From Acidobacteriota bacterium (GTDB lineage Bacteria > Acidobacteriota > Terriglobia > Terriglobales > SCQP01), in the NCBI GenBank assembly GCA_004299485.1, contig SCQP01000001.1, forward strand, positions 310,001 through 374,000: 64,000 nt of DNA, read 5' to 3'. A program made the translations under genes and the position numbers. The notes under the pieces are model-generated. The model saw nothing but the letters and a program-made list of their open reading frames with translations, was not told the origin of the DNA and made no database searches. This document shows, one piece after another, positions 355 to 63,635 of this stretch (within the stretch, counting starts at the first letter, position 1; each line of letters opens with the position of its first letter).

Positions 355-465
355 GGTGGCTCGCCACTTTTTGCCCTGGTCGCTCCCGTTGGTCGCTTGG
401 AGTGCGGGCTTCGATTCCCGGCGGGGTCCACCCGCTGGCGCTCAGGGATCCTCCAAGCTGCCGCC
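355..465 (+). repeat. Family A 111-bp structured repeat, full copy 1
   Basis: The copy starts with the perfect hairpin GTGGC-TC-GCCAC followed by a T-run, then a nested stem (CTTGGAG pairing with CTCCAAG, GCGGGC pairing with a later GCCCGC; one base of the inner stem varies here). It lies immediately after the transporter stop codon and before the next gene. The same 111-bp unit recurs at 7392, 50822, 51451, 51682, 55217 and 63525. Confidence 0.9.
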
Positions 466-494
466 GTCGGCTATGCTTGGGGCAGGAGGCGGGC

Positions 495-1433
495 ATGATT
501 ACGGAAGCGGGCTGGCCGGAATTGCCGTTGGCGGCTTGGCAGGAGAGCTACACGACGCTGCATCTGTGGACCCAAATCGTGGGGAAGGTGCGCACGGCGC
601 TCAGCCCCCTGGTGAATCATTGGTGGAACTCGGCGCTGTACGTCTCGGCGCGTGGGCTGACGACGTCTCCGATACCGTGGAAGGGAGGGTCGTTTGAGGC
701 GGAATTCGACTTCATCGATCATCAGCTTGCGCTGCGGGGCAGCGACGGGGCGCGGCAATATCTTCCGTTGTACCCGCACACGGTAGCGGATTTTCACCGC
801 GAGTTTTTCGCGGTGCTGCAGACGTGGGGCATCGAGGTGGTGATCGCCGAGGGACCTTCGGAGATGGCAGATCCGATTCCGTTCGCGGAAGATAAGATTC
901 ACGCGGCGTACGATCCGGAATACGTCCAGCGCTTTCATCGCGTGCTGGTGTCGTGCGATGCGGTGTTCGAGGAGTTCCGGGCGCGGTTTATCGGCAAGGC
1001 GAGTCCGGTGCATTTTTTCTGGGGCAGCTTCGATCTGGCGGCGACGCGGTTTTGCGGACGGCGGGCGCCGGAGCGGCCGGGAGCGGATGCGATTACGCGC
1101 GAAGCCTATTCGCACGAGTGCAGCAGCGCCGGGTTCTGGCCGGGCGGCAGCGGGATAGATGCCGCGTTTTACGCCTATACCGTGCCGGCGCCGGAGGGAT
1201 ACGCGAAGCAGAAGATACGCCCGGCGGAGGCGTTTTTTCACCAGGGGCTAGGCGAGTTCATCCTGATGTACGATGTGGTGCGGCGCGCTGCTTCGCCGCG
1301 CGCGATGCTGCTGGATTTTCTGCAGAGCAGCTACGAAGCAGGAGCGAACCTGGCGGGCTGGGATCGCAAGGAGCTGGAGCGGGAGCCGGGGGCGGAGTGG
1401 CCGGAGGCTGCAGAGGTGCGGCGCACGGCGTAA
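495..1433 (+). CDS. DUF5996 family protein
   Basis: A 312-residue soluble protein with no signal peptide or membrane segment. It opens with WPELPLAAWQESYTTLHLW and continues with KVRTALSPLVNHWWN, which I recognise as the DUF5996 family. The biochemical role is unknown. A run such as PVHFFWGSFDLAATRF in the middle and HQGLGEFILMYDVVR near the end look like conserved family blocks. The start at 495 is chosen because AGGAGG lies 6-11 bases upstream and because an earlier in-frame start would lie inside the family A repeat. The stop codon directly abuts a truncated repeat copy. Confidence 0.8.
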   Translation: MITEAGWPELPLAAWQESYTTLHLWTQIVGKVRTALSPLVNHWWNSALYVSARGLTTSPIPWKGGSFEAEFDFIDHQLALRGSDGARQYLPLYPHTVADFHREFFAVLQTWGIEVVIAEGPSEMADPIPFAEDKIHAAYDPEYVQRFHRVLVSCDAVFEEFRARFIGKASPVHFFWGSFDLAATRFCGRRAPERPGADAITREAYSHECSSAGFWPGGSGIDAAFYAYTVPAPEGYAKQKIRPAEAFFHQGLGEFILMYDVVRRAASPRAMLLDFLQSSYEAGANLAGWDRKELEREPGAEWPEAAEVRRTA

Positions 1434-1474
1434 GTGGCTCGCCACTTTTTGCCCTGGTCGCTCCCGTTGGCCGC
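1434..1474 (+). repeat. Family A repeat, truncated copy
   Basis: Only the first ~41 bases of the 111-bp unit are present, including the GTGGC-TC-GCCAC hairpin and the T-run, starting on the base after the TAA of the DUF5996 gene. Placed between two convergent genes, it would look like a rho-independent terminator, although the other copies show that it is part of a dispersed repeat. Confidence 0.85.
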
Positions 1475-1483
1475 GCGGGTGAT

Positions 1484-2905
1484 TTATCTCACGCTCCAGA
1501 TGGTGAGGGTGCCGATGGTGGAGCGGCGGTTGGCGTTGCCGTCGGTCATAAAGATGTGGCCGTCAATGACGACCGGGCTTTGCCAGTGGCCGCGTGGGCA
1601 GGCGAGTTGGGTGACCCGCTTGCCGCTGGCGGCTTCATAGACGTTGAGCAAACCCGCGGGATCGAAGACGTAGAGCAGGTCGCCGGCAACGAAGGGGCTG
1701 GTGCCGTCGGTGGCGTTTTTCCATTGGGTCGAGAGCTTGCGGTTGGCAAGCACCCAGGCTTCGGTGCCGGCGGCAGTGGCAGCAAAGACCCAGGTCTCGC
1801 CGTCATGTTGCCACACCGCAGGCTGACCGAAAAGCATTTCGCCGCGGCGGGTGTCGTTGGCGGGTAATCGTGCGACCTGGAGCTCGTGATCCTTATGGGG
1901 CGCGGTGCCGGCCATGGAGGCGATGCTGATGAGGCGGAAGGTGCCGTCTTTGCCGCCCTGAGCGATGATTCCGCCGCCGAGCCAAACCGGCGAGCTCGAG
2001 CCGACATCGAGATCGCGATCGTTGAGTTCATCGGTATTGGCGGGAGTATAGTTGCCCAGCATTTGGGTGGCGCCCGAGTTGAGCTGGATGACGGCATCGC
2101 CCCAGTTGGTTTTGCCGTTCCAGGCGGCGTTGCCGGTGGCGATGAAGATGTCGCCGGTGGCGGGATCGATCTGGGGGCCGGGACGGCCCCAGATGGCGGA
2201 GTCACTCTCGGAGCAAGTGCTGGGATCGAGCAGGCCGGGGCGGTCGCTGCAAAGCGAATTCCAGACGTGGAGCAACTCGCCGCTGGCGGCGTCAAGGACG
2301 GCAACGTGGCCCTGGTAGGGCGGACGGTCGCCGTTGTAGCCGGCGGTGACCGCGATGACGCGGCCGCGATCGACCTTGAGACCGGAATCCATCTTTTCGC
2401 GCAGCGGCAGCCGGGTGATGGAGGTGCGCCAGATTTGGTGGCCGTCGGCGACGGACAGCTTCTCGATATATCCGTCGGGCGAGGCAGTGTAGATGTGCTT
2501 GAGGTCTGGATCGGCGGCGGGAATGGAGTTGGTGACCTGATGACTGCCGGCGAGCTGGCTATAGCTCGAGGGCGTGTAGACCCAGAGAATTTTGCCGCTA
2601 TCGGCGTCGATCGCCATGGTCTTGCCGTAGAGGGCGGTCAAAAAGAGGGTGTTGTGGCGCGCCCCCTTGACCATGGCTCCGTGCAGATAGATGCCGCTGG
2701 CATCGACGGTGCCGGGAAGCTGGACCTCGCGTTTGCTTAGCTTGGCGACGTTGGCGGCCGTGATACCGCCGGAGCTGGCGATGGCGCTGGGGCTGGTGAG
2801 TGAACCGCCGAACATCAGCCAGTCGCGAGCGGGGGTGGATTGGGCGGAGGCGGTCATCACCAAGCCAGCCCCGAGCAGAAACGAGAGAGCCAAGGAGTGT
2901 CTCAT
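1484..2905 (-). CDS. Secreted PQQ-type beta-propeller protein
   Basis: A 473-residue protein with an N-terminal signal peptide (MRHSLALSFLLGAGLVMTASAQ). The body carries repeated blade-like motifs: DADSGKILWVYTP, DGHQIWRTS, VLDAASGELLHVWN and YEAASGKRVTQLAC. These are typical of pyrrolo-quinoline-quinone-like eight-bladed propellers. It lacks the cytochrome and catalytic hallmarks of a true quinoprotein alcohol dehydrogenase, so a binding or scaffold role in the periplasm is as likely as an enzyme role. The start at 2905 is chosen because it begins the signal peptide; the upstream extension has no signal character. It is divergent from the barrel cluster. Confidence 0.75.
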   Translation of the reverse strand: MRHSLALSFLLGAGLVMTASAQSTPARDWLMFGGSLTSPSAIASSGGITAANVAKLSKREVQLPGTVDASGIYLHGAMVKGARHNTLFLTALYGKTMAIDADSGKILWVYTPSSYSQLAGSHQVTNSIPAADPDLKHIYTASPDGYIEKLSVADGHQIWRTSITRLPLREKMDSGLKVDRGRVIAVTAGYNGDRPPYQGHVAVLDAASGELLHVWNSLCSDRPGLLDPSTCSESDSAIWGRPGPQIDPATGDIFIATGNAAWNGKTNWGDAVIQLNSGATQMLGNYTPANTDELNDRDLDVGSSSPVWLGGGIIAQGGKDGTFRLISIASMAGTAPHKDHELQVARLPANDTRRGEMLFGQPAVWQHDGETWVFAATAAGTEAWVLANRKLSTQWKNATDGTSPFVAGDLLYVFDPAGLLNVYEAASGKRVTQLACPRGHWQSPVVIDGHIFMTDGNANRRSTIGTLTIWSVR

Positions 2906-2926
2906 GCGGTGATTATAAGGCCACGG

Positions 2927-2956
2927 TTGGCAATCTCCTGGAACTTGGACTATAGT
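2927..2956 (+). promoter_or_regulatory. Predicted promoter of the barrel-protein cluster
   Basis: TTGGCA, an 18-base spacer and TATAGT, followed 7 bases later by the ATG of the first barrel paralogue. The spacing predicts a transcript starting at or next to the start codon. It lies between divergent genes. Confidence 0.55.
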
Positions 2957-2963
2957 CGCGTTT

Positions 2964-3490
2964 ATGAAGCGGAGCGCATGGACTGTCGTGCTGTTTCTGC
3001 TGGCGGCCACGTGCGTATGGGCGCAGAGTGGGCACAGCTTTGACTTGGCTGGCGGGGCGGGCACTGGCTTCGGGGGTAACTTTCACGGAGGGTTTTGACC
3101 GGCCGTCAGCGCGACGGGATGGTTTGGGCGCTGCTGGGGGCGAATGGAGAGTTTTCGTTCGCCTCCACGGATAACCCGCCCAACATCAGGCCTTGGGCGC
3201 TCGATGCCAACTTGGCGTTGCGGCCGGTGAACGGGCCGGTCACGCCGGTGATCTTGTTCGGCGTCGGCGTGCTGCAGTACGGCGTTGTTTCCTTGGGGTT
3301 GCCGAGCGGTTTTGGGCCGGGTTACATGTCGATCACGAATGCAGCTTACCATTTGGGTTTTGCGCTCAAGCGGTACATCCACGGCCGGTGGTTTCTGCGG
3401 CTCGGTTACAGCCTGTACTGGGCGCATCAGATTAAGGGCCATCCGCAGCGGATTACGGTGATGATCGGCTACACCTGGGGGAAGCCGTGA
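2964..3490 (+). pseudogene. Outer-membrane barrel paralogue 1 (nonsense and frameshift)
   Basis: It starts with a signal peptide (MKRSAWTVVLFLLAATCVWAQ) and follows the same plan as paralogues 3 and 4 downstream. Where the others read GFWP, this copy has TTT-TGA (TGA at 3096-3098), a Trp-to-stop change. A one-base frame change around 3125-3135 follows. After it, the family sequence resumes (ANGEFSF, WALDANLALRP, YHLGFALKRYIHG, IGYTWGKP). Its terminal TGA overlaps the GTG start of the next copy. It is probably a decayed first member of the tandem cluster; a sequencing error would have to explain two lesions. Confidence 0.75.
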
Positions 3491-4597: not shown

Positions 4598-5115
4598 AAA
4601 GGTGCAAGCTCGTCATCATCCTTGTGCTCCTGGCAGCGGTCGGGCTGGGAGCGCAAAGCCTGGATCTGACCGCAGGGGCTGGCGCGGGGCTGGGCGGCAA
4701 TTTCATGCACGGGTTTTGGCCGAGCTTCAGCGCAACCGGCTGGATTGACCAGAACGTAGGGTTCGAGGGCGGGATTGCATTTAATGTGGGCACCTCGGTG
4801 CGGAATTACGCTGCGGAGGGGAACCTCGCCGTCCGTGCCGCGGCGAAGAGTTGGACACCGGAATTCTTGCTTGGGTATGCGCGGCTGCAGACGGCGCAAC
4901 CGAAGTGCAGCCTATGCCTCATCAATCCGCTCGCACCTGCGGCGTTTTCTTTGCCCAAATACAACACGTTCGATCTGGGCGTGGCGGTGAAGCACTATGT
5001 GTCCGGCGGCGCCTTTTTCCAGGCCGACTTCCGGACCTACTTCGGCGGCGGCAGCGAGTTTGGCCAGCCCTGGCGATTCGCGTTTTCGATCGGCTACACC
5101 ATCGGCAAGCACTAG
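4594..5115 (+). CDS. Small outer-membrane beta-barrel-like protein, paralogue 4
   Basis: 173 residues with a signal peptide (MKRCKLVIILVLLAAVGLGAQ), then the same framework as the other copies: GGNFMHGFWPSFSATGW, EGNLAVR, SWTPEFLLGYA, YNTFDLGVAVKHYVSGG and SIGYTIGKH. It contains a C-x-x-C pair (CSLCL) at about residue 108, where paralogue 3 also has two cysteines, possibly a loop disulphide. It is the last member of the overlapping cluster. Its TAG stop is the first base triplet of a duplicated copy of the pirin gene end. An intact secreted barrel is the most likely product. Confidence 0.7.
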   Translation: MKRCKLVIILVLLAAVGLGAQSLDLTAGAGAGLGGNFMHGFWPSFSATGWIDQNVGFEGGIAFNVGTSVRNYAAEGNLAVRAAAKSWTPEFLLGYARLQTAQPKCSLCLINPLAPAAFSLPKYNTFDLGVAVKHYVSGGAFFQADFRTYFGGGSEFGQPWRFAFSIGYTIGKH

Positions 5116-5456
5116 CGCGTCTTGAGGAAGGTGCCTTCCTGGAGCTCGCGATAGGCCTCGCGGAGCTGGGCATTTCTGGGCGCGGGCCCCAGCGCGGCTC
5201 ATGCCGCGCGTCCCGCTTGTGCTCACGCCGGGTTGGGGGCCCGCAGCCCCAACCCGGCGCTGCGCTGCCGGCCACTCCGCCGCTTAGCGCGTCTTGAGGA
5301 AGGTGCCTTCCTGGAGCTCGCGGTAGGCCTCGCGGAGCTGGGCATTTCTGGGCGCGGGCCCCAGCGCGGCTCATGCCGCGCGTCCCGCTTGTGCTCACGC
5401 CGGGTTGGGGGCCCGCAGCCCCAACCCGGCGCTGCGCTGCTGGCCACTCCGCCGCT
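5113..5456. repeat. 172-bp tandem duplication: pirin gene end plus family B repeat, two units
   Basis: Each unit is 57 bases copied from the 3' end of the pirin gene plus a 115-bp GC-rich repeat (5170-5284 and 5342-5456). The two units are almost identical and run into the real pirin end at 5457. The repeat part holds two strong hairpins: GCGCGGC-TCAT-GCCGCGC (5192-5209) and a perfect 12-bp stem GCCGGGTTGGGG / CCCCAACCCGGC (5227-5258). The same repeat, diverged but with stems preserved, lies at 38508-38621 beside a duplicated nuoD start. No gene is seen in this stretch. Confidence 0.9.
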
Positions 5457-6364
5457 TAGCGCGTCTTGAGGAAGGTGCCTTCCTGGAGCTCGCGATAGGC
5501 CTCGCGGAGCTGGTCCTGAGTGTTCATCACGATGGGGCCGTACCAGGCGACGGGCTCCTCGATGGGCTTGCCGGAGACGAGGAGGAAACGGATGCCGTCT
5601 TCGCCGGCGTGGACTTCGAGCTCGTCGCCGCGGTCGAAGAGGATGAGGGAGCGATTTTCGACATCAGCGGGCGGGGGGGCGGTATCGAGCCAGCCGACAG
5701 GCTCGGTGGGTACGGCCAGCGGCTCGCTGGCGTTGCAGAACTTGCCGCTGCCGGCAAACACGTAAGCAAAAGCGTGGCGGGTGATCTCGACGGGGAGGGT
5801 GCGGCGGGTCCCGGGCGGGACGGAAACGTCGAGATAGACGGGATCGGCGGCCACACCTTCGACCGGACCTTTGCGGCCCCAGAAATTGCCGGAGACGACG
5901 CGGACGTGGGTGCCGTCGTCCTCGGTGCGCTCGGGGATCTCTTCGGCTTTGAACTCCTGGTAACGCGGGGCGATCATCTTCTGCGAAGAGGGCAGGTTGC
6001 CCCAGAGCTGAAAGCCGTGCATGCGTCCGGCAGCGTCCCCTTTGGGCATTTCCTGATGGATGATGCCGCTGCCGGCGGTCATCCATTGCACGTCTCCGGA
6101 GCCGATGGCGCCGCGGTGGCCCATGCTGTCGCCGTGCTCGACCGTGCCGGCGAGCACGTAGGTGATGGTCTCGATGCCGCGATGGGGATGCCAGGGGAAG
6201 CCGGCGAGGTAGTCGGCGGGGATGTCGTTGCGGAAGTCATCGAGGAGCAGGAAGGGATCAAAGTCTTTGGTGCTGCCCCAGCCGAAAGCGCGGCGGAGAT
6301 GGACACCGGCGCCTTCGAGGGTAGGTTTGGCCTGGATGATTTTTTTAACGGGGCGGAGCGACAT
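5456..6364 (-). CDS. Pirin family protein
   Basis: 302 residues, a two-cupin pirin. The N-terminal cupin has the metal-binding core HPHRGIETITYVLAG with later HGDSMG and SGIIHQE, giving three His and one Glu as iron ligands. The C-terminal cupin has YVFAGSGKF. Pirins of bacteria act as quercetin 2,3-dioxygenases or as redox-responsive cofactors; which applies here cannot be told. The start at 6364 begins MSLRPVKKIIQ. A longer upstream frame would run over the promoter region of the divergent XRE gene. The last 57 bases of the gene are duplicated twice immediately downstream. Confidence 0.85.
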   Translation of the reverse strand: MSLRPVKKIIQAKPTLEGAGVHLRRAFGWGSTKDFDPFLLLDDFRNDIPADYLAGFPWHPHRGIETITYVLAGTVEHGDSMGHRGAIGSGDVQWMTAGSGIIHQEMPKGDAAGRMHGFQLWGNLPSSQKMIAPRYQEFKAEEIPERTEDDGTHVRVVSGNFWGRKGPVEGVAADPVYLDVSVPPGTRRTLPVEITRHAFAYVFAGSGKFCNASEPLAVPTEPVGWLDTAPPPADVENRSLILFDRGDELEVHAGEDGIRFLLVSGKPIEEPVAWYGPIVMNTQDQLREAYRELQEGTFLKTR

Positions 6365-6408
6365 GGCGAAGCCTCCTGATGCCAGTCTACGCCGGAGGGC
6401 AAGTGTCG

Positions 6409-6427
6409 TATAACAGATTATGTTATA
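6409..6427. promoter_or_regulatory. Probable operator of the XRE/nucleotidyltransferase pair
   Basis: Inverted repeat TATAAC-N7-GTTATA in an AT-rich patch between the divergent pirin and XRE genes. Its position just upstream of an XRE-type antitoxin gene suggests an autoregulatory binding site that may overlap the promoter. This is inferred from symmetry and position only. Confidence 0.5.
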
Positions 6428-6460
6428 TTGTGGTTGTGGGTGGGTGGAGGAGTGGACTGA

Positions 6461-7159
6461 ATGAACGGGAGGGTGCTGAAAGATGCGCGGAGAGAGCGGG
6501 GCTGGACGCAGAAGCACGCGGCGGCGGTGTTGGGTGTGACGCAGGCGTACGTGTCGATGCTGGAGAGCGGGCGGCGCACGGTGCCACGCCGGCACGCGCG
6601 GCGGCTGGTGAGCCGGTTACGGCTTGCGCCGACCGCGCTACCGCTGAGCGCCGGCGTGGCGCCGGCTGGGGCGCCGAGTGAAGCAGTGCGGGATGAGTTG
6701 GCGGCGCTGGGGTATCCGGGGTTTGCCTACCTGCGCCGGAGCGGGGCGGCCAGGAGGCACAATCCCGCACAGGTGCTGCTCACCGGGCTCAGCACACCCG
6801 AACTGGACCGGCGCGTGGCGGAAGGGCTGCCGTGGCTGGTTTATGCTTTTGAGGAACTGGATCGAGACTGGCTGAACGGAAACGCCAAGATGCGGGATTG
6901 TCAAAATCGGCTGGGGTTCACGCTGGCGTTGGCGGCGGGGGTGGCGCGGAAGACAGGTGACGAGAAGCGGGCGCAGAGCCTGGAGCAGTGGGAGCGGGGG
7001 CTGGAACCTTCGCTGCTGGCGAGGGAAGACACGTATTGTCATGAGGCGATGACCGCGACCGAGCGCACGTGGCTGCGAGAGCATCGGTCGCCGAAAGCGC
7101 GGAAATGGAACCTGCTGACCGACCTGACGGCGGAGCAGCTTGATCATGCCGCGGGTTGA
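6461..7159 (+). CDS. XRE-family DNA-binding protein, likely antitoxin of a nucleotidyltransferase pair
   Basis: 232 residues. Residues ~6-50 form a helix-turn-helix of the XRE class (RRERGWTQKHAAAVLGVTQ, then YVSMLESGRRTV). The remainder is a soluble helical domain with no catalytic motif that I recognise. GGAGG lies upstream. The gene overlaps by 14 bases a gene with a GGFAV...DLDVLM nucleotidyltransferase signature, the usual layout of type II or IV-like XRE/NTase TA modules. A symmetric AT-rich operator lies just upstream. A role as a repressor-antitoxin is inferred from context. Confidence 0.7.
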   Translation: MNGRVLKDARRERGWTQKHAAAVLGVTQAYVSMLESGRRTVPRRHARRLVSRLRLAPTALPLSAGVAPAGAPSEAVRDELAALGYPGFAYLRRSGAARRHNPAQVLLTGLSTPELDRRVAEGLPWLVYAFEELDRDWLNGNAKMRDCQNRLGFTLALAAGVARKTGDEKRAQSLEQWERGLEPSLLAREDTYCHEAMTATERTWLREHRSPKARKWNLLTDLTAEQLDHAAG

Positions 7160-7800
7160 GTATGTCCCGGAGCCGTGGCGCTCGTTCCTGCGGGAACTGG
7201 ACGCGGCCGTAGGAACCGAGGTGCGGCTGGTGTGCATGGGTGGGTTCGCGGTTTCACAGTTTTATGGCTTCGCGCGGCCGACACCAGATTTGGACGTACT
7301 CATGCTCCGGCCATCGGATGTGCCGCCGGTGATCAGTACGCTCGGCCAGCGGGGCGGAACTTTGCACAAGAAGCACCGCGTCTACCTGGAAGTGGCTCGC
7401 CACTTTTTGCCCTGGTCGCTCCCGTTGGTCGCTTGGAGTGCGGACTTCGATTCCCGGCAGGGTCCGCCCGCTGGCGCTCAGGGCTCCTCCAAGCTGCCGC
7501 CAGTCGTCGCCGTGGCTGCCGTGCCGGACGGCTGCGAGGAGCGGTTGACGGAGATGTGGCCTGGGGCTTTTCGCAACCTCCAGTTACGCGTGCTGGATCC
7601 CTACGATCTGGCGCTTTCGAAGCTGGAGCGGAACACGGAGCGGGACCGGGCCGATGTGCGCTTTCTGGCTCGAGCGATTCCGCTGGATTTGGATTTGCTG
7701 CGGGAGCGAGAAAGAATTGCGCTGGCAGTTGGGGAACCCGGAGCGCGAGGACCTCACGCTGAGACTGTGGCTGGAGATGATCGGCGAGGACCGGGTGTAA
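7146..7800 (+). pseudogene. Nucleotidyltransferase-fold toxin-like gene, interrupted by family A repeat and a frameshift
   Basis: The N-terminal part carries the nucleotidyltransferase signature MGGFAVSQFYG...TPDLDVLM (about residues 30-55). At codon 83 a 111-bp family A repeat is inserted in frame between HRVYLEV and VVAVAAVPDGCEERL, which reads as one family sequence when the insert is ignored. Near 7710 a frameshift follows: after DLDLLRER the family C-terminus EKELRWQLGNPE...LEMIGEDRV continues in another frame and stops at 7798-7800. The gene is therefore probably inactive. The unshifted frame would run on over the next gene. It pairs with the upstream XRE gene. Confidence 0.8.
7392..7502 (+). 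repeat. Family A 111-bp repeat, full copy 2, inside a coding sequence
   Basis: Full-length copy in the forward orientation inside the nucleotidyltransferase gene. It is exactly 37 codons, has no stop in that frame and keeps the two halves of the host gene in register. Both hairpins are intact. Confidence 0.9.
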
Positions 7801-7806
7801 CAAGCG

Positions 7807-8076
7807 CTAGCGGCGGCAGTGGCGACAGCCTTGGGAGATGGGGGCGCCGCAGAAGCCGCAGAAGTGACCGGAGGCGGCGCCGGCGGCGGCGGGGATGACG
7901 ACGACGCGCGGGGCGGCGGGTTCGTCGGCGAGGGCCCAGAGGAGAGAGGCGATCCAGCCGATGACGGTCCAGGCGAGGAGCGCGTCGAGCAGGAAGATGG
8001 CGGTGAAGTTGCGCTTGTTGTGCGCCAGGATGGCGGGCAGGAAATAGAGGAAGGCCAATACGCAGAACGTAAGCAT
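7807..8076 (-). CDS. Superinfection-immunity-like small membrane protein with zinc-ribbon tail
   Basis: 89 residues. Two membrane segments (about residues 2-18 and 26-50, with FLPAILAHNKRN between) match the Imm_superinfect layout known from phage T4 Imm-like proteins that are widespread in bacteria. The C-terminus adds a C-x-x-C ... C-x-x-C zinc-ribbon (CGFCGAPISQGCRHC). It lies convergent to the broken nucleotidyltransferase gene. A role in blocking phage DNA entry is only a family-based suggestion; many chromosomal members have unknown roles. Confidence 0.65.
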   Translation of the reverse strand: MLTFCVLAFLYFLPAILAHNKRNFTAIFLLDALLAWTVIGWIASLLWALADEPAAPRVVVIPAAAGAASGHFCGFCGAPISQGCRHCRR

Positions 8077-9201: not shown

Positions 9202-9224
9202 TTTTCTCGAGGGAGGGTAGGTTT

Positions 9225-38421: not shown

Positions 38422-38622
38422 ATGGCGACCACCTTCGAGCCTGTGGCGGGTGAGCAGGGGCAGGATCGCTCCCGCAACCTGATCATGAACATGGGGCCGC
38501 AGCACCCGGCTTTTTATTGGCGCGGGTCCCTGCGCGGCGCCGCCGCGCGTCCCGCTTTTGCTCGCGTCGCCCTGGGGGCCCCTGAGCCCCAGGCCGGCGC
38601 TGCGCTGGAGGGTTGCTGCTAA
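38422..38622 (+). pseudogene. Duplicated nuoD start fused to a family B repeat (66-residue frame)
   Basis: The first 29 residues are identical to the NuoD N-terminus, but the DNA differs at nine positions, all synonymous (including Ser TCC versus AGC). After base 38507 the frame continues through a GC-rich family B repeat for 37 more residues and stops on the two bases before the true nuoD ATG. It starts at the normal distance after nuoC. It is either a partial duplication, a recombination scar between two nuoD alleles, or a small translated leader peptide. Confidence 0.8.
38508..38621 (+). repeat. Family B repeat between the two nuoD starts
   Basis: 114 bp aligning along its length to the two units beside the pirin gene. 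Hairpin 2 is CCTGGGG / CCCCAGG here versus GGTTGGGG / CCCCAACC there: the bases changed but the pairing is kept. Confidence 0.85.
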
Positions 38623-39833
38623 TGGCGACCACGTTTGAGCCGGTAGCGGGCGAGCAGGGGCAGGACCGCAGCCGCAACCTGATCATGAACATGGGGCCGC
38701 AGCACCCCTCCACGCATGGCGTGCTGCGCATGGTCCTGGAGCTGGATGGCGAGGTCATCGTCAAGGCGCGGCCCGACATCGGTTATCTGCATACCGGCAT
38801 TGAGAAATCGGCGGAGTCGAAGTTTTACCAGCAGGTCGTCACCCTCACCGACCGGATTGATTACCTGGCGCCGCTGTGCAACAACCTGGCCTACGTGCTG
38901 GCGGTGGAAAAGCTCCTGCAACTTGAAATTCCGCGGCGGGCGCAGTGGACGCGGGTGCTGCTGACGGAGCTGACGCGGCTCAACAGCCATCTGGTTTGGC
39001 TGGGCACGCACGCGCTCGACATCGGCGCCATGACGGTGTTCCTGTACTGCTTCCGCGAGCGCGAGGAGCTGCTGAAAATTTTCGAAATGTTCAGCGGGCA
39101 GCGGATGATGACCTCGTACTTCCGCGTGGGCGGGCTGGCGCTGGAGCCGCCGCTGGGCTGGGCGGAGCGGATCAACAAGTTTCTGGCGACCTTCCCCGGC
39201 CACATCGACGAATACGAAGCGCTGCTGACGAAGAACAACATCTGGGTCGGGCGCACCAAGGACATCGGCTATCTTTCGCCGGAGGATTGCATCGCCTGGG
39301 GCGTGACCGGCCCGTGCCTGCGGGCGGTGGGGCTGGCGAGCGATCTGCGCAAAACCTCGCCGTATTCGTCGTACGAAGAGTTTCAGTTTGACGTGCCCAC
39401 GCGCACCGAGGGCGATGTCTATGCCCGCTACCTGGTGCGCATTGCGGAAATGCGCGAGAGCGTGAAGATCATCCGGCAGGCGATTGACGGCATGCCGGAA
39501 GGCGCATGGAAGGTCGATGCGCCGGGCATTGTGCTGCCCGACCGCGACCAGATGAAGTACTCGATCGAGAGCCTCATCTACCACTTCAAGATCGTGACCG
39601 AAGGCTTCAAAGCGCCGCGCGGCGAGGCCTACCAGGCGATAGAAGGGCCGCGCGGCCAGATGGGCTATTACGTCGTTTCCGATGGCGGGCCGAAGCCGTA
39701 CCGCTGCCACATGCGTTCGGCGTCGTTCGCCAACTTGCAGGCGCTGCCCAAGATGATCGAGGGGCGGTTGCTGGCGGACGTAGTGGCGATTATCGGGAGC
39801 ATTGATATTGTGCTGGGGGATGTGGACCGGTGA
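38622..39833 (+). CDS. nuoD: NADH-quinone oxidoreductase subunit D
   Basis: 403 residues, the 49-kDa-type subunit forming the quinone pocket. Motifs include MGPQHPSTHGVLRMVLELDG, IGYLHTGIEKSAESKFYQQ, LNSHLVWLGTHALDIGA, KTSPYSSYEEFQFD and the end LADVVAIIGSIDIVLGDVDR. It works with NuoB, missing here. Its start shares bases with the stop of the upstream duplicate. The full-length frame is intact. Confidence 0.96.
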   Translation: MATTFEPVAGEQGQDRSRNLIMNMGPQHPSTHGVLRMVLELDGEVIVKARPDIGYLHTGIEKSAESKFYQQVVTLTDRIDYLAPLCNNLAYVLAVEKLLQLEIPRRAQWTRVLLTELTRLNSHLVWLGTHALDIGAMTVFLYCFREREELLKIFEMFSGQRMMTSYFRVGGLALEPPLGWAERINKFLATFPGHIDEYEALLTKNNIWVGRTKDIGYLSPEDCIAWGVTGPCLRAVGLASDLRKTSPYSSYEEFQFDVPTRTEGDVYARYLVRIAEMRESVKIIRQAIDGMPEGAWKVDAPGIVLPDRDQMKYSIESLIYHFKIVTEGFKAPRGEAYQAIEGPRGQMGYYVVSDGGPKPYRCHMRSASFANLQALPKMIEGRLLADVVAIIGSIDIVLGDVDR

Positions 39834-47778: not shown

Positions 47779-49359
47779 ATGACTTTCCTGAACCACACTA
47801 TCGTGAGCTGGATCATTTTCTTTCCGATGATCGGGATTGTCGCGCTGCTGCTGACGCGCGGCGAGCAAGCGATCAAGCGCGTAGCGCTCGTCTTCACCGT
47901 CATCACCTTCGCGCTTTCGCTGCATCTGCCGTTTCACTGGAACAGCGCCGAGGGCGGCTTCCAGTTCCTGCAGGCGAAATCCTGGATTCCGGCGTTTGGC
48001 ATTCACTACCTCGTCGGCGCCGACGGCCTCAGCCTGTGGCTGATGGTGCTGACGACGTTCCTCAGCGTGCTGGGCGTGCTGGTGTCATGGAAGTCGGTCA
48101 AGCAGAATCTCAAGGCCTTCTTCATCCTGCTGCTGCTGCTCGAATGCGGCATGCTGGGCGTCTTCAGCTCGATCGACCTCTTCCTGTTCTACGTCTTCTG
48201 GGAAGTCACGCTGGTGCCGATGGCGTTTTTGATCGGCATTTGGGGCCACGAGCGGCGGATTTACGCGGCGGTCAAATTCTTCCTGTACACCATGGCCGGC
48301 TCGCTGCTGATGCTGGGCTGCATTTTGTGGCTGTACAACCTCACCGGCACGTTCAACTACATGACCATCAAGGCCGGGCTGGCGAACGGGCTGTACCACC
48401 TGAGCCCGACGACCGAGCTGGTGCTGTTCCTCGGCTTCTTTGTGGCGTTTGCGATCAAAGTTCCGCTGTTTCCGTTTCACACCTGGCTGCCGGACGCGCA
48501 TACGGAAGCGCCGACGGCCGGCTCGGTGCTGCTGGCCGGCGTGCTGCTGAAGATGGGGCCGTACGGCATGCTGCGCTTCAATCTGGAGCTGTTCCCGCAC
48601 GCCGCCCGCACCTGCGCCTCGTGGATTGTGATTCTGGGATTGATCGGCATCATCTACGGCGCGCTGGTCGCCTTCTCGCAGCCCAACATGAAAAAGCTGG
48701 TGGCCTACAGCTCGGTCAGCCACATGGGCTTCATCATGGTGGGCGTGTTTACCTTCAGCCTGATCGGCACGCAAGGCGCGATCTACCAGATGCTGAACCA
48801 CGGCATTTCGACCGGCGGCCTCTTCATTCTGGTGGGCATGCTCTACGAGCGGCGGCATACGTTTGATCTGAAGGAATACGGCGGCATCGCCAAGGTCATG
48901 CCGCTCTACGCAGGCTTCTTCATCTGGATCGTGATGTCTTCGGTTGGTCTGCCGCTGCTGAACGGTTTTGTGGGCGAGTTCATGATCATGCTGGGCACCT
49001 TCACGGCTTCGGTCGCCCATGCGCACGTGTTCGGCATTGTCGCCTGCGTCGGCATCATCGTGGGCGCCATGTATCTGCTGCACTGGACGCGTTCGACGGT
49101 GTGGGGCGAAATCACCAACGCCAAGAACAACGTGCTCGCCAAGCTCGACAAGCGCGAAATCTTCGTGCTCACCTGCATCGCGGTGCTGACGCTGTTCATG
49201 GGCGTGGCTTCGCCCTTCTTCCTGAATAAAACAGTGGCTAGTTCTCAGTTGTTAGTGGCTAGCGTGAACGCGCCATCGGCGCGCACCCGCTCGGGCGTCA
49301 CCGCCGCACTAACCACTAGCCACCAGCCAGTAACCACTGTTCGCGGAGGTGGCCAATGA
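47779..49359 (+). CDS. nuoM: NADH-quinone oxidoreductase subunit M
   Basis: 526 residues, antiporter-like, ~14 helices. It has FFVAFAIKVPLFPFHTWLPD, AHTEAPTAGSVLLAGVLLKMG and KLVAYSSVSHMGFIMVG. The usual protein ends near SPFFLNK; here a further ~40 residues (TVASSQLLVASVNAPS... to the end) are read from an inverted short-word repeat. The stop overlaps nuoN (ATGA). The tail is probably cytoplasmic or periplasmic and harmless. Confidence 0.94.
   Translation: MTFLNHTIVSWIIFFPMIGIVALLLTRGEQAIKRVALVFTVITFALSLHLPFHWNSAEGGFQFLQAKSWIPAFGIHYLVGADGLSLWLMVLTTFLSVLGVLVSWKSVKQNLKAFFILLLLLECGMLGVFSSIDLFLFYVFWEVTLVPMAFLIGIWGHERRIYAAVKFFLYTMAGSLLMLGCILWLYNLTGTFNYMTIKAGLANGLYHLSPTTELVLFLGFFVAFAIKVPLFPFHTWLPDAHTEAPTAGSVLLAGVLLKMGPYGMLRFNLELFPHAARTCASWIVILGLIGIIYGALVAFSQPNMKKLVAYSSVSHMGFIMVGVFTFSLIGTQGAIYQMLNHGISTGGLFILVGMLYERRHTFDLKEYGGIAKVMPLYAGFFIWIVMSSVGLPLLNGFVGEFMIMLGTFTASVAHAHVFGIVACVGIIVGAMYLLHWTRSTVWGEITNAKNNVLAKLDKREIFVLTCIAVLTLFMGVASPFFLNKTVASSQLLVASVNAPSARTRSGVTAALTTSHQPVTTVRGGGQ
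49232..49343. repeat. Short-word inverted-arm repeat inside the nuoM 3' end
   Basis: The left arm has AGTGGCTAGTT and TTAGTGGCTAG; the right arm has AACCACTAGCCACC and AACCACTGT. A GC-rich core with GGCGCGC lies between. The vocabulary is the same as the nuoD-nuoE repeat. It is translated in full, adding a tail to NuoM. Confidence 0.85.
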
Positions 49360-50822
49360 GCCTGGTGCCTTCGGTCTACTACCTGCGCATCCTGCCGGAG
49401 ATCATCCTCGCGGTTTTCGGGCTGGTGATCATGCTCGTGGCCGGGCCGGCGCGGCATGGCAGTCGCGCCCGTGTGTGTGGCTGGATCGCGTTCGTGGGCA
49501 GCATACTGGCGCTGTTGAGTGTGCTGGTGCAGGCGGCGAATCCGGGCACGGCGTTCAACGGCATGTTCCGCGTGGATGCCTTCACGACGTTTCTGCATGT
49601 CGTGCTGATCGCCGCCACGGCGGTGATCGTGCTGCTGGCGATGGATTACCTGCCGCAGCAAAAGCTGGAACGCGGCGAGTTCTACGCGCTGCTGCTGTTC
49701 GCCACCATTGGCATGGGCTTCATGGTCGGCTCGGTGGAGCTGATCATGATCTTCATTGGGCTGGAGATCAGCTCGATTTCGACCTATATTCTGTGCGGCT
49801 ACCGGCGGCATGACGGCAAATCGACCGAGTCGTCGCTCAAGTACTTCCTGCTGGGTTCGTTCGCCACCGCGTTTTTCCTCTACGGTATTGCGCTGCTCTA
49901 CGGCGCGAGCGGCACGACCGATCTGTACGCCATGGCTGCGCAAGGTTTCCACATCAGCTATGGCGGCATCAGCAACGCCGAGCTGGTGCTGGCCGCGGCG
50001 GCGCTGATGTTCATCGGCCTCGGCTTCAAGATGTCGGTGGCGCCGTTTCAGATCTGGACGCCCGACGTCTATGAAGGCGCGCCGGCGCTGGTGACCGGCT
50101 TCATGTCCGCCGGGCCGAAGGCTGCGGCCTTTGCGGTCGCGCTGCGCATCTTCTACGTCGCGCTGCACGGCTCGACGGGCGCGTGGTTCTGGATGGTCTG
50201 GGCGGCGGCGATTCTGTCGATGTGCCTTGGCAACCTGGGCGCGCTCATGCAGAACAACCTGAAGCGCATGCTGGCCTATAGCTCGATTGCGCAGGCCGGC
50301 TACGTGCTGGTGGCGTTTGCCGCGCTCGGCCAGGCGGGCGCCTCGGCGGTGCTGTTCTACCTCGCCGCCTACGTGGCGATGAACATCGGCGCCTTCGCCA
50401 TCATCGCCCACTTCGCCCACAGCGAAGAGCGGTATGTGAACCTGCACGACTACGCCGGTCTGGGTTTCAAATCTCCCTGGCTTGGCTTCTGCCTGGCGGT
50501 GTTCCTGTGCTCGCTGATCGGCGTGCCGCTCACCGGAGGCTTTTTCGGCAAGCTCTACGTCTTCCAGGCCGCGCTGCATTCGCACCTCATCGGCCTGACC
50601 GTCATTGGCCTGCTGAACAGCGCCCTGGCGGCGTTCTACTACCTGCGCGTCATCGTCTACATGTATATGCGCCCGGAGGAAGAACCCATCGCACAGTCGC
50701 GCTCGAACGCGCCGCTGTTCGTCGCCGTCGCCGCCTGCGTGCTCGTCACCTTCTGGCTCGGTATCTTCCCCTCGACCGCCTTGGCGCACGCGCTCAAGGG
50801 CGCGCAGCAACTACTGCACTAG
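49356..50822 (+). CDS. nuoN: NADH-quinone oxidoreductase subunit N
   Basis: 488 residues, the third antiporter-like subunit. Motifs include FKMSVAPFQIWTPDVYEGAP, KRMLAYSSIAQAGYVLVAFA and LIGVPLTGGFFGKLYVFQAA. It is the last gene of the operon. Its TAG stop uses the first G of a family A repeat, whose GTGGC hairpin plus T-run could act as the terminator of the operon. Confidence 0.95.
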   Translation: MSLVPSVYYLRILPEIILAVFGLVIMLVAGPARHGSRARVCGWIAFVGSILALLSVLVQAANPGTAFNGMFRVDAFTTFLHVVLIAATAVIVLLAMDYLPQQKLERGEFYALLLFATIGMGFMVGSVELIMIFIGLEISSISTYILCGYRRHDGKSTESSLKYFLLGSFATAFFLYGIALLYGASGTTDLYAMAAQGFHISYGGISNAELVLAAAALMFIGLGFKMSVAPFQIWTPDVYEGAPALVTGFMSAGPKAAAFAVALRIFYVALHGSTGAWFWMVWAAAILSMCLGNLGALMQNNLKRMLAYSSIAQAGYVLVAFAALGQAGASAVLFYLAAYVAMNIGAFAIIAHFAHSEERYVNLHDYAGLGFKSPWLGFCLAVFLCSLIGVPLTGGFFGKLYVFQAALHSHLIGLTVIGLLNSALAAFYYLRVIVYMYMRPEEEPIAQSRSNAPLFVAVAACVLVTFWLGIFPSTALAHALKGAQQLLH

Positions 50823-51154
50823 TGGCTCGCCACTTTTTGCCCTGGTCGCTCCCGTTGGTCGCTTGGAGTGCGGGCTTCGATTGCCGGCAGGGTCCGCCCG
50901 CTGGCGCTCAGGGCTCCTACAAGCTGCCGCCGAAGGTCGTCGTCTGGCTCGATCTTCTGGTCAGGCACCTTCGCAAGCACGGCCAAGTACTTCTCCCGGT
51001 CGCCTCGCGCTGCCCGCTCGCGCAGCCTGTCCCACGCCTGTGCCTGATCGGCCAGCGCGGCGTTGACCACGTCTTCGACAGAGATCTGCCGTGCCTCCGC
51101 GATCTTGCGGACATGGTCGTAGGCTTCGACCGGAATCTTGATCTTCACGCTCAC
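50819..51154 (-). CDS. RHH-type antitoxin with a repeat-derived C-terminus
   Basis: 111 residues if started at GTG 51154. The first ~73 residues (VSVKIKIPVEAYDHVRKIAE, ISVEDVVNAALADQAQAWDR) are a ribbon-helix-helix-like antitoxin. The last 37 residues are translated from the reverse strand of a family A repeat. The stop lies next to the nuoN stop. Whether the original C-terminus was replaced or extended is not clear. A remnant of its likely PIN partner lies upstream on the same strand. Confidence 0.6.
   Translation of the reverse strand: MSVKIKIPVEAYDHVRKIAEARQISVEDVVNAALADQAQAWDRLRERAARGDREKYLAVLAKVPDQKIEPDDDLRRQLVGALSASGRTLPAIEARTPSDQRERPGQKVASH
50822..50932 (+). repeat. Family A 111-bp repeat, full copy 3
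   Basis: Full copy starting on the last base of the nuoN stop. One arm of the outer stem has a change (CTACAAG for CTCCAAG), shared with the copy at 51451. It forms the 3' end of the antisense antitoxin gene. Confidence 0.9.
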
Positions 51155-51166: not shown

Positions 51167-51207
51167 GTGGCTCGCCACTTTTTGCCCTGGTCGCTCCCGT
51201 TGGTCGC
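51167..51207 (+). repeat. Family A repeat, truncated copy
   Basis: First ~41 bases only, as in the copy at 1434. It lies exactly between the end of the PIN remnant and the antitoxin gene, so the breakpoint may mark a recombination between copies. Confidence 0.85.
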
Positions 51208-51681
51208 ATGGCGAGCACCTCAGCCGGCGTCTTCACCACGACCCCGATCCGCCGCGCACCTTCAAAGTCGTGCAAATTAAATGATCGCGCCGCACTGCGC
51301 CGCTAGCTCGAGAATACTCTCGTCATCTGGATCAGGCAAAACCGTCCGCAAGCGCGGGACGGAAGGCTCCAGGCGAGTGCGCTGCAGCAGGTAGTCCAGA
51401 AAGTCGTCGATATCCTGGGCGCGCATGCCCGGCACCATCCCCGGCCGCTGGTGGCTCGCCACTTTTTGCCCTGGTCGCTCCCGTTGGTCGCTTGGAGTGC
51501 GGGCTTCGATTGCCGGCAGGGTCCGCCCGCTGGCGCTCCGGGCTCCTACAAGCTGCCGCCGTAGGATGTCTTCATACTCCAGCGCCAGCGCCACGGAAAC
51601 GTGAAGCTCGAAGCGGTCTTCGGGGATTACCCGCAACAACTCGTACGAGGCGCCTCGTCGAGACCGCAGCCTCGCAACCAG
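51208..51681 (-). pseudogene. Remnant of a PIN-family toxin (COG1569 type) broken by repeats
   Basis: Reading the minus strand, segments of one PIN protein appear in order: LVARLRSRRGASYELLRVIP, LHVSVALALEYEDILRR, (111-bp repeat), RPGMVPGMRAQDIDDFLDYL, LPDPDDESILELAAQCGAII. After this a frameshift leads to FNLHDFEGARRIGVVVKTPA in another frame, ending at a truncated repeat. The N-terminus with the first catalytic Asp (usually DTNVLVAG) is missing beyond another repeat copy at 51682. It is clearly non-functional. Confidence 0.8.
51451..51561 (+). repeat. Family A 111-bp repeat, full copy 4, inside the PIN remnant
   Basis: Inserted between codons for ILRR and RPGMVP of the minus-strand toxin gene. 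The 37 codons contributed on that strand have no stop, and the two gene halves stay in register. The flanks carry a similar 6-base string (C-N-GCGG), a possible target duplication. Confidence 0.9.
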
Positions 51682-51792
51682 GTGGCTCGCCACTTTTTGC
51701 CCCGGTCGCTCCCGATGGTCGCTTGGAGTGCGGGCTTCGATTCCCGGCAGGGTCCGCCCGCTGGCGCTCGGGGCTCCTCCAAGCTCCCGCCA
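51682..51792 (+). repeat. Family A 111-bp repeat, full copy 5
   Basis: Full copy bordering the PIN remnant at the position where its N-terminus should begin. It differs slightly from the others (CTCGGGGCTCC near the 3' stem; CTCCCGCCA end). Confidence 0.9.
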
Positions 51793-54983: not shown

Positions 54984-54988
54984 GGCCC

Positions 54989-55372
54989 GATTCGTCGCGC
55001 CAAAGCCAGCGCGATGCCGCTATCGGCGAGGTGATTTCCGAACTCGCGCGACGGAGCCTATGCGGGCAGGGGACAGCACGGCACGTGCGCAACGGCGTAC
55101 CGCTGCTGCCCCAGCGGCGCACCAGCGTGCACGTGTTTTCCGAGCTGATCCGCCGCATCGAGGAAAGAACTGCCCTGACGCGCTAGCTGCGGGACGTCAA
55201 CGCCCTGATCGCGCTGGTGGCTCGCCACTTTTTGCCCTGATCGCTCCCGTTGGTCGCTTGGAGTGCGGGCTTCGATTCCCGGCAGGGTCCGCCCAATGAC
55301 GCTCAGGGCTCCTCCAAGCTGCCGCCATTCGACCCGGACCACGTGCTGCACGACGCCACATTCGGCATCTAA
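54989..55372 (+). pseudogene. Remnant of a VapB-VapC pair interrupted by a family A repeat
   Basis: The first part reads SQRDAAIGEVISELARRSL and VRNGVPLLPQRR, then a stop, matching the C-terminal two thirds of a VapB antitoxin of the DUF2191 kind but with no start codon. Next comes LRDVNALIAL, the beginning of a PIN toxin, then a 111-bp repeat containing a TGA, then FDPDHVLHDATFGI and a stop. Ignoring the repeat, the toxin start reads NALIALFDPDHVLHDA, typical of VapC. The rest of the toxin is gone. Confidence 0.78.
55217..55327 (+). repeat. Family A 111-bp repeat, full copy 6, inside a vapC remnant
   Basis: Exactly 111 bases separate the codons for IAL and FDPD of the toxin, so the reading frame is kept across it. 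In this copy TGG became TGA inside the repeat. The 130 bases between the remnant and the next gene (55373-55502) hold no gene. Confidence 0.9.
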
Positions 55373-56051: not shown

Positions 56052-56057
56052 TGCCGC

Positions 56058-57973
<1,916 letters not shown>

Positions 57974-58030
57974 CCTCTTCCCGGGCGAAGAATTGCGCTA
58001 CACTCAAGGGGTTTTCCGGAGGGTTGCCCC

Positions 58031-61210: not shown

Positions 61211-61304
61211 ATCCGCGATCACATTAAGGTTGCGTTCAGCTTCGGCGGGAGAGGATGGTGGACGTGTGCCGCGGCTGAGCGGCGCAGCAAGGAGATATCC
61301 GCCC

Positions 61305-62327: not shown

Positions 62328-62330
62328 AGC

Positions 62331-62437
62331 GCGGGTGGCACAGCCACCTCTTGCTGGAGCCGCCCTCCCGCTGGTCGGGCTGTGGCTGGGCTTCGCTCCC
62401 GGCAACGGACGCCCGCAGGTGCTCAAGTACCAGCGGC
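62331..62437 (+). repeat. Diverged family A repeat (family F) after the YVTN gene
   Basis: Hairpin GGTGGC-ACA-GCCACC, then CTCCCGCTGGTCG and GGGCTTCGCTCCCGGCA, which align with family A in the same order; overall clearly diverged. As in other copies it begins within a few bases of a stop codon. Confidence 0.7.
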
Positions 62438-62464
62438 AGTGGGGCACGAGCCCCGCCCTGTGGA

Positions 62465-62753
62465 TCAGGGCGTGTGCCGAATATCAAGGGTCGGATCCAG
62501 CTTTTTCAAAAAACGAGCCGCCGTAGGTGCGTCGAAGCCGTCGCCGCGTCGCGCTCCCGCCATGTACCAGTCAGGGTCGGCCTTCTCGGCTGCAACGGAA
62601 ATCACGGTTTTCGGCGACCAGTTCTGGTCGCCATAGAAAACTCGCCACGACCGCGGGTCACGCTCGGACCCCGCGCCCGGGGCGGTAGCCGCTTCTCAGT
62701 CGCGCCAGGGCCTCGTGCACATGCCCCTTGGTAATCTTTTCCGAAATGGCCAT
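62465..62753 (-). pseudogene. Small frameshifted gene of unknown function
   Basis: On the minus strand an ATG at 62753 opens MAISEKITKGHVHEALARL. Near 62660-62685 the frame changes by one base, after which WRVFYGDQNWSPKTVISVAA, DPDWYMAGARRGDGFDAPTA and ARFLKKLDPTLDIRHTP follow to a stop at 62465. The sequence recalls, distantly, the N-terminal module found in some HNH/McrA-like endonucleases (block with PK-x-VIS-x-A and a final FL-x-KL), but I would not call it. It is either a pseudogene or a sequencing error in a small gene. Confidence 0.5.
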
Positions 62754-62812
62754 AGGCGAGAGTATAGCCCGGTGCCGCCAGCGGGCACGGCCTGCGATGT
62801 ATACTGCGATGT

Positions 62813-63103
62813 ATGGCGGAGACGATGGTGCGCAAGCAGCTCTATATCGAGCCGCGGCAGGAGCGGTTGCTGAAGCGGCTGGCGAAGGAGCGGGGCACGA
62901 CGGAAGCCGAGATCGTGCGCGCCGCGATTGATAAGTACGCCAGCGAGCCGGAGGAATCGCGGGAGCAGCGGTGGGAACGATTCATCGCGCGGCTACGCGC
63001 GCGCGCGGAAGCGACGAAAGGAGCACCGCAGCATCCACGCGACTGGACGCGAGAGTCGCTCTACGAAGAGCGCATGCGGCGCTATGACCGGCATTCTGGT
63101 TGA
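62813..63103 (+). CDS. RHH-type antitoxin
   Basis: 96 residues: MVRKQLYIEPRQERLLKRLA and GTTEAEIVRAAIDKYASE form a ribbon-helix-helix unit, followed by a long charged tail for toxin binding. TATACT ends 7 bases before the ATG. It overlaps the PIN toxin by 20 bases. Confidence 0.85.
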   Translation: MAETMVRKQLYIEPRQERLLKRLAKERGTTEAEIVRAAIDKYASEPEESREQRWERFIARLRARAEATKGAPQHPRDWTRESLYEERMRRYDRHSG

Positions 63104-63524
63104 CACCAACTTATTGGTGTACACCGTCGATCCTGGCGAAAGCACCAAACGCGAGCAGGCGATTGCCGCTGTGGACCGCTTGGGTCTTACGGGGCGTGGC
63201 TGTCTGAGCGTGCAGTCTATGTCTGAGTTCGCCAACGCGGTGCTGCGCCGGCGGCTGCTCAGCGCCGCGGAAGCGGACGATTACGTTGGGGAATTGACGG
63301 GCAAGTGGAAGATTTTTGATCTGACTCCGACGGTGGTGCGCGAGGCGTTGCGGGGCGTGCGGGAGCACCGGATGAATATCTGGGACGCGCAGATCTGGGC
63401 GGTGGCGCGGCTGCACGGGGTCGAGACGGTGCTGAGCGAAGATTTTCAGGACGGGATGCGGGTCGAGGGAGTACGCTTTGTCAATCCCTTTCAGCGGGCT
63501 TTCGATCTGGAAGCGCTGCTTTGA
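63084..63524 (+). CDS. PIN-domain toxin (VapC-like)
   Basis: 146 residues. GILVDTNLLVYTVD (Asp), MSEFANAVLRR (Glu), MNIWDAQIWAVA (Asp) and LSEDFQDGMRVEGV (Asp) give a full PIN active site. The start is inside the antitoxin gene, so translation is coupled. The TGA stop is immediately followed by a family A repeat. Confidence 0.87.
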   Translation: MTGILVDTNLLVYTVDPGESTKREQAIAAVDRLGLTGRGCLSVQSMSEFANAVLRRRLLSAAEADDYVGELTGKWKIFDLTPTVVREALRGVREHRMNIWDAQIWAVARLHGVETVLSEDFQDGMRVEGVRFVNPFQRAFDLEALL

Positions 63525-63635
63525 GTGGCTCGCCACTTTTTGCCCTGGTCGCTCCCGTTGGTCGCTTGGAGTGCGGGCGTCGATTCCCGGCAGGGTCCGC
63601 CCGCTGGCGCTCAGGGCTCCTCCAAGCTACCGCCA
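63525..63635 (+). repeat. Family A 111-bp repeat, full copy 7
   Basis: Begins on the base after the toxin stop. Its hairpin 1 with T-run may end the TA transcript. It finishes 22 bases before sucC, whose TATCCT hexamer lies at 63641-63646. Confidence 0.9.

Follow-up and report, generated by a model that had tools for sequence, protein, structure and literature searches.

A 64,000-nucleotide stretch of an Acidobacteriota genome (assembly GCA_004299485.1, contig SCQP01000001.1, positions 310,001 to 374,000 of the forward strand; hereafter the window) contains a dispersed 111-bp repeat that we call family A. An earlier reading of the window from its letters alone (the original prediction) had described it as a structured repeat that recalls the repetitive extragenic palindromic (REP) elements moved by Y1 transposases. 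We find that the repeat is a real mobile element, new among the small palindromic mobile repeats. Our interpretation, to which we assign a probability of about 60%, is that it is a non-autonomous element of about 108–114 bp that integrates precisely, with no target base duplicated or deleted, into R/NNNG sites (the slash marks the insertion point; the preference for R is weak, that for G strong), and whose lengths in multiples of three allow it to reside in proteins as an insert of 36–38 residues. How the element inserts is well supported; its enzyme and a single-strand route are what we infer. The multiple-of-three lengths, in-frame insertion, the G at the fourth base past the right end (+4 G), the missing target duplication and the skew-linked orientation had all escaped the original prediction.

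Insertion sites and a nested insertion

We compared copies from the window genome (G000, 3.3 Mb), from four genomes of the same genus (G001–G004) and from two further members of the family (G006 and G011). Totals for G000 (88, 97, 102 or 107 copies) vary by the filter applied and by loci added later; copies were dropped for indels, for fewer than 103 or fewer than 95 matching bases, or for lying too close to the end of a locus. Among 88 full copies, target duplications of 2–9 bases were no more frequent than expected by chance, and the longest sequence shared by the two flanks averaged 3.52 bases against 3.49 expected. The base preceding the element was a purine in 70 of the 88. The fourth base past the right end was G in 79/88 and, with added copies, in 87/97 of family A; of the four flanking bases, only this one was strongly conserved. 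The same G followed the modal-length copies of a second family of the window genome, family B (6/6), and those of G001 (10/10), G002 (1/1), G003 (12/13), G004 (12/13), G006 (2/2) and G011 (2/2). It was also present at 55 of 57 copies from named-assembly loci, a set from which 21 further core matches had been dropped for want of clear ends or flanks. A related element of G007 had it in 7/7 copies, with the end position picked after inspection.

One locus provides a natural empty-site experiment. At C14:136674 (L095:10474-10700), a family B element of 114 bp splits a family A copy of 111 bp exactly between its bases 20 and 21, so that target bases were neither added nor removed. A comparison around the window open reading frame (ORF) 49356-50822, which ends at a full copy, was uninformative as an empty-site test; synteny with the relatives ends at that ORF.

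Element length and residence in genes

Lengths were taken by one boundary rule that includes a terminal variable base and agrees with the nested case. This base is species-typical, being A in 78/97 family A copies and T in 12/13 copies of G003. Family A measured 111 bp in 97/102 copies, and the constant length in the original prediction, like the dispersed and structured nature of the repeat, is borne out. The length was 114 bp in G001 (10/10) and G003 (13/13), and 108 bp in G004 (13/13), G002 (1/1), G006 (2/2) and G011 (2/2). In the named-assembly loci it was a multiple of three in 55/57, as it was in all seven long forms (153, 150 or 144 bp). In the alignment, what separates the families is a series of individual gaps, each one or two columns wide, with totals of 3 or 6; for the main families, the total of each gap pattern is divisible by three. 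The long forms at L132, L129, L216, L217, L236 and L242 carry an extra hairpin (CCACCCC...GGGG) after CCCGYTG, and the bases around GYTG are repeated on both sides of it, as if a second small element had inserted. A larger related element of about 180–263 bp, with the hairpin GAGGC...GCCTC and the same core as the main families, is seen in G007 (L257, L265, L273, L288, L293 and L298).

Several copies lie in frame within recognizable proteins. In the thiamine phosphate synthase ThiE of G000 the element is antisense and in frame and splits the Pfam domain into two stretches; none of ten aligned relatives has an insert at that point (10/10 without it). An M24 peptidase matches its domain over residues 159–402 for 208 profile positions, continuously across a 37-residue insert. 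Three further enzymes, an AMP-binding one, a GT2 glycosyltransferase and an FAD-dependent reductase (MerA-like by eye), have a domain match that is stretched or broken around the insert, and one BNR-repeat protein carries two copies. Among the relatives, the domain match of a prolyl oligopeptidase continues through the insert, a MurB ORF holds an in-frame copy between its two domain matches, and further in-frame copies are found in ORFs of a RecG-type helicase and of a complex I 20-kDa-type subunit, where the insert precedes the domain match. We counted 27 candidate ORFs in the Pfam searches, 7 of which were without a match.

Genes were called with a plain score of codon usage, for which the window was the training set, and the in-gene assignments rest on Pfam and ThiE. 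By this score most copies lie outside genes. In G000, 13/107 copies were in-gene-like, 12 of these 13 without a stop codon in the frame and 11 of the 13 antisense. The relatives gave 10 in-gene-like frames at 8/54 copies, none with a stop and 5/10 in sense.

Copies in the window

Within the window, the 21-base 5' end (up to 3 mismatches) occurred nine times, against none in shuffled sequence. The seven full copies of the original prediction are all present and all on the + strand, the first of them beginning one base later than given (at 356, not 355). They lie at 356..466, 7392..7502, 50822..50932, 51451..51561, 51682..51792, 55217..55327 and 63525..63635. The copy at 7392 is in sense and in frame within a DUF6036-type nucleotidyltransferase ORF (7128-7895), of which it makes up residues 89–125; the DUF6036 match starts at residue 129. 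The first base of the copy at 50822 completes the stop codon of ORF 49356-50822, nuoN-like by eye, and the copy at 63525 directly follows the stop codon of a PIN-domain gene (62928-63524). Two cut copies, correctly recognized before, are 5' fragments on the + strand. One consists of the first 41 bases (1434..1474) and lies directly 3' of the stop codon of a DUF5996 gene (402-1433); the other consists of the first 45 bases (51167..51211). What had been taken for a diverged copy at 62331 is a related element, namely a 3'-truncated member of family B from 62335 (62335..62425, + strand).

The original prediction also held that most copies start on or right after a stop codon or inside a gene. Stop codons are enriched there: 22/88 full copies have one ending at most 2 bases before the element or 1 base into it, as opposed to 8/88 at a control position 25 bases upstream. 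This does not amount to most copies.

Some other features of the window were noticed. A 172-bp tandem repeat (5113-5513), made of two complete units that are 99% alike and the beginning of another, ends beside, and partly overlaps, a pirin-family ORF (5456-6595). A stretch beginning ATGGCGACC occurs twice, at 38422-38507 and 38622-38707, 91% alike and 200 bases apart; it is the start of a nuoD-like gene, as judged by eye. A metallo-beta-lactamase-superfamily gene lies at 56058-56993.

Distribution in the genome and among relatives

A search of the whole genome, suggested along with the original prediction, gave 131 places matching the first 20 bases with at most 2 mismatches (81 forward, 50 reverse) and 119 matching the last 21 bases with at most 3; reversed-pattern controls for the two ends gave none. 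Full copies in G000 match the consensus at 103–111 of 111 bases, by the filter used; the copies within a genome are nearly identical, and their ends are sharp.

Related Acidobacteriota proved to carry diverged versions. In a comparison of G000 and 59 relatives, with at most 14 candidates scored per genome, matches were obtained in 7/60 genomes: G000, G001–G004, G006 and G011. Beyond the genus, 2 of 9 genomes of the same family matched (G006 and G011), and none of the 46 genomes of the neighbouring family f2; G005 and G010 were among the genomes without a match. Copies of other species are mostly 75–83% alike to the G000 consensus. A family B probe matched 9/14 genomes of the family (G000, G001, G003, G004, G006, G011, G013, G007 and G009), weakly in G007 (E 0.009) and over 48 bases only in G009; G002 had no match to it. 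In named species genomes the exact pattern was found in 59 stretches, all from acidobacterial metagenome assemblies (isolates clean14, CRAIB_MAG75, YF1.bin113, CRAIB_MAG124 and clean3563). These correspond to G003, G004, G001, G002 and G006, respectively, and the 57 copies from named-assembly loci largely repeat G001, G003, G004 and G006. No match was obtained in the plasmid records, phage records and viral contigs searched. So far, the element has been found only in this acidobacterial lineage.

A 14-base core, CTCCCGYTGGTCGS, occurs at least 20 times in 15/399 genomes of the class, G000 and G007 included, with controls at no more than 5 per genome. In genomes of another family the core sits within other repeats. 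Several f2 genomes hold up to 243 occurrences each, within hairpin repeats that are otherwise dissimilar; genomes with the repeated core include G028, G049, G021, G029, G037, G048 and G026, among others.

Orientation follows the local GC skew

Neighbouring copies tend to share their orientation. Among the matches listed (125 places), 109 neighbouring pairs showed 23 switches, compared with 51.6 after shuffling; thinned to distances of more than 5 kb, again among the matches listed, 21/68 pairs switched versus 32.8 expected (P 0.0023). We scored orientation relative to the locally G-rich strand rather than to the leading or lagging strand, in 847 kb read continuously (contig C1 whole, together with C12 and half of C18, picked after the list of places had been viewed). 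The element lay on the G-rich strand in 35/45 full copies, in 31/37 where the absolute skew exceeded 0.03 and in 19/20 where it exceeded 0.09; for the last class, the frequency of RNNNG sites predicts 12.1 (P 0.0005). With one copy per 5 kb, the counts were 22/29 (expected 16.2, P 0.022), 18/22 above 0.03 (expected 12.6, P 0.015) and 11/11 above 0.09 (expected 6.7, P 0.004). These results suggest that orientation is tied to replication.

The direction of neighbouring genes was considered as the cause of the orientation and rejected: left-flank genes were co-directional in 46 cases and opposite in 43, and the skew on the element strand was positive for co-directional and opposite flanking genes alike. 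A switch of the skew near C1:80 kb was considered as a candidate for the replication origin, but no dnaA was present among the 10 ORFs scanned there. Beside this sign change, C1:60000-80000 (L212) has MzaB-like ATPase hits far under the curated cut-off and is possibly a defence island or an inversion.

Structure

Alignment of 34 sequences supports the 5' hairpin seen in the window: one of its pairs has changed on both sides, being U-A in 29, C-G in 4 and neither in 1, and the G007 version has A-T. A 3' stem, GGCAA/TTGCC, has become GGCAG/CTGCC in 14/34. The proposed structure as a whole pairs in 89.7% of cells, versus 30–51% when slid along the alignment, and its covariation score is above that of all 500 shuffles. 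Pairs changed on both sides number 4, which 208/500 shuffles reach, and the count of further pair types is reached by 498/500; neither is in excess. The nested second stem of the original prediction, GCTTGGAG/CTCCAAGC, does pair in the copy of family A that was examined, but the relatives have not kept it; their second stem is the 3' stem given above. The fold is not extra stable either. The T-run after the 5' hairpin is not found in G006, in G011 or in one of the G001 types. No inverted pair of at least 6 bases joins the two ends (one copy each of G000, G003, G004 and G006), and of the terminal 12 bases 1–5 match between the ends. A stable RNA was considered and rejected, the stability of the fold being close to that of shuffles (z near 0) and Rfam giving 0 matches at the gathering threshold in the window and six loci with element variants. 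A likeness of GGGCTTCGATTCCCGG to a tRNA T-arm was noticed.

Mechanism and alternatives

In the mechanism that we propose, the element, or its circle junction, would fold as single-stranded DNA at replication forks and be processed there by an enzyme provided in trans. On the bottom strand, the cuts would fall directly after CNNN in the target and directly after CCAC at the element's own end, a pattern that corresponds to the logic of the IS200/IS605-type HUH transposases. The mover may be one not yet identified, or one since lost, given that the main carriers G000, G001 and G004 yielded no Y1 enzyme. The length modulo three would be kept by survival, because copies landing in genes would persist only where the reading frame stays intact. 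In a fuller version, frame-neutral mobile DNA inserts as single-stranded DNA at R/NNNG by an enzyme that is neither a Y1 transposase nor a reverse transcriptase, and steadily adds segments of 36–38 residues to acidobacterial proteins; this version we put forward tentatively, with the odds against it.

Alternatively, the repeat could be a REP- or REPIN-like element whose TnpA_REP, a Y1 enzyme of the REP-associated tyrosine transposase (RAYT) type, was lost not long ago or has diverged beyond detection. HUH chemistry would account for the hairpin with its GTGG foot, the many copies, the orientation bias and the missing target duplication, and excerpts of PMC6006769 describe, from Acidobacteria, class 3 Y1 proteins that have atypical secondary structures at their flanks. 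The Y1 family PF01797 has matches in 7/11 family genomes, with one gene each in the carriers G002 and G003. The many-copy carriers G000, G001 and G004, however, had neither a PF01797 match nor a first-look candidate, and 12 Y1 loci in seven other family genomes showed no convincing element ends in flanks of up to 1.5 kb, where the best match was at chance level (E 0.01 among 15 queries). Moreover, GTGG lies inside the hairpin stem rather than forming an unpaired tag, and the unit is 108–114 bp long. The link to TnpA_REP, including the suggestion of a Y1 gene flanked by the same ends, therefore found no support here, and we regard it as unlikely. An RNA-mediated route, in which a small RNA is reverse-spliced or reverse-transcribed into the template of the lagging strand after the fashion of a group II intron, would likewise give precise insertion without duplication, a strand bias and conserved stems. 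Against it, G000–G004 gave no match to the RVT_1 family of reverse transcriptases (PF00078) and the element matched no Rfam family; we consider this route very improbable. The PF01797 and PF00078 probes both gave matches in control genomes.

The size, the copy number and the lack of a coding capacity of its own would also suit a miniature inverted-repeat transposable element (MITE) of a cut-and-paste (DDE) insertion sequence. The 88 full copies had no excess of target duplications, however; copies of four species had no inverted pair of 6 or more bases joining the ends (5/12 bases at best), and the interrupted copy at L095 is exactly colinear. In line with the original prediction, no transposase was found nearby: there was none among ten large window ORFs, transposase classes other than Y1 not having been searched genome-wide. 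By eye, no autonomous copy with a gene between a 5' and a 3' half was seen among the copies examined, and 5'-only and 3'-only copies, judged from their coordinates over part of the genome, did not pair around a gene. The missing duplication already weakens the MITE reading, DDE transposases not having been searched genome-wide, and we judge it quite improbable. A regulatory role is an alternative of a different kind: the repeat would be a functional RNA or a transcription terminator that selection has spread and maintained. The 5' hairpin followed by T5 resembles an intrinsic terminator, one hairpin pair covaries, stop codons are enriched just before the element (22/88 vs 8/88), and the antisense position of 11/13 in-gene-like G000 copies would be expected if a sense copy stopped transcription. 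Yet the T-run is absent from G006, G011 and one G001 type, left-flank genes are as evenly divided as 46 and 43, and half of the in-gene-like frames of the relatives (5/10) are in sense; we consider this alternative improbable.

Several results weigh against the precise, frame-neutral mobile element that we favour. Its enzyme and single-strand step are what we infer, no mobilising gene having been found. The G-rich strand is usually the lagging-strand template; if that holds here, the strand that fits cleavage after CNNN and CCAC is the opposite one. Absence of Y1 enzymes from the three carriers refers to PF01797 only, in genomes 98.8, 73 and 82% complete, and two other carriers (G002 and G003) do have one Y1 gene each. 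The length rule has exceptions: in G000, family B measured 114 bp in 6/13 copies and 111 bp in 4 and was off the rule in 3, and the related element of G007 is a multiple of three in only 3/7, with 2 further copies lacking a recognizable 3' end. The degenerate end of the 144-bp long form (L129) was matched with its own sequence, and this form lacks the +4 G. Five of six frames are open in the element, which is not rare, as 18% of shuffles reach it, and the stability of single-sequence folds is ordinary relative to shuffles (z 0.07 and −0.34). Finally, copies are clustered, which takes away the independence of the orientation counts before thinning, and C12 and C18 are contigs selected when the place list was known.

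Relation to known repeats

The original prediction called the repeat undescribed, and the open-licence literature searched, on acidobacterial REPs, on inserts like those of Rickettsia and on the core sequence, held no description of it. Excerpts of the RepRanger study (PMC12306157) report many REPs in a Granulicella, with no tie to the element apparent in them, and numerous short repeats are reported for Solibacter, without sequences in the text consulted (PMC3174227).

A close likeness is to the Rickettsia palindromic elements (RPEs), which, according to excerpts of a review (PMC2229807), are 105–146 bp long, occur in many copies, both intergenic and in frame in conserved protein genes, and have a 12-bp terminal inverted repeat, with a question mark entered for target duplication. 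The element described here is similarly sized, has many copies and also lies in frame inside protein genes. It differs by the lack of an end-to-end inverted repeat (1–5 of 12 terminal bases match), by its +4 G rule, its strong preference for multiples of three and its skew-linked orientation, and it belongs to another phylum; the likeness drawn here is one of features and effect. In effect, it would be an RPE-like element mobilised in trans, probably as single-stranded DNA. REPs, by the account in parts of PMC3733652, are 20–40 bp long, and the CGTC type is known without a dedicated transposase. The element shares with REP/RAYT systems a GTGG-footed hairpin, a copy number above 100 and the lack of a visible autonomous copy, but it is 108–114 bp long, has GTGG in the stem rather than an unpaired GTAG or CGTC tag, and has no Y1 match in three carriers including G000.

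IS200/IS605 elements insert next to a short target motif. The element may resemble them in inserting without target duplication by a short motif, although only one of its four flanking bases is strongly conserved, and in an orientation that appears tied to replication. It differs in that neither a transposase nor an insertion sequence with its ends was found, and in that the conserved base is on the right-hand side of the insertion, read along the G-rich strand. Single-strand transposition is tied to the lagging strand, as the portion of PMC6006769 consulted states. Excerpts of PMC2229807 also cover ERIC (enterobacterial repetitive intergenic consensus) sequences and bacterial MITEs, some of which are fused in frame to genes and most of which have terminal inverted repeats and target duplications; the element is of similar size, and neither of these was found in it.

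The review, as far as excerpted (PMC2229807), does not settle how RPEs come to enter genes in frame, and the present family could serve to test it. The material comprises more than 100 recent copies, several related species with empty sites and a sharp target rule. The length rule points to selection that preserves the reading frame. If it is true that the mover lies outside the known classes, it would be a new recombinase with minimal target requirements. For annotation, the finding means that acidobacterial proteins can carry inserted repeat peptides.

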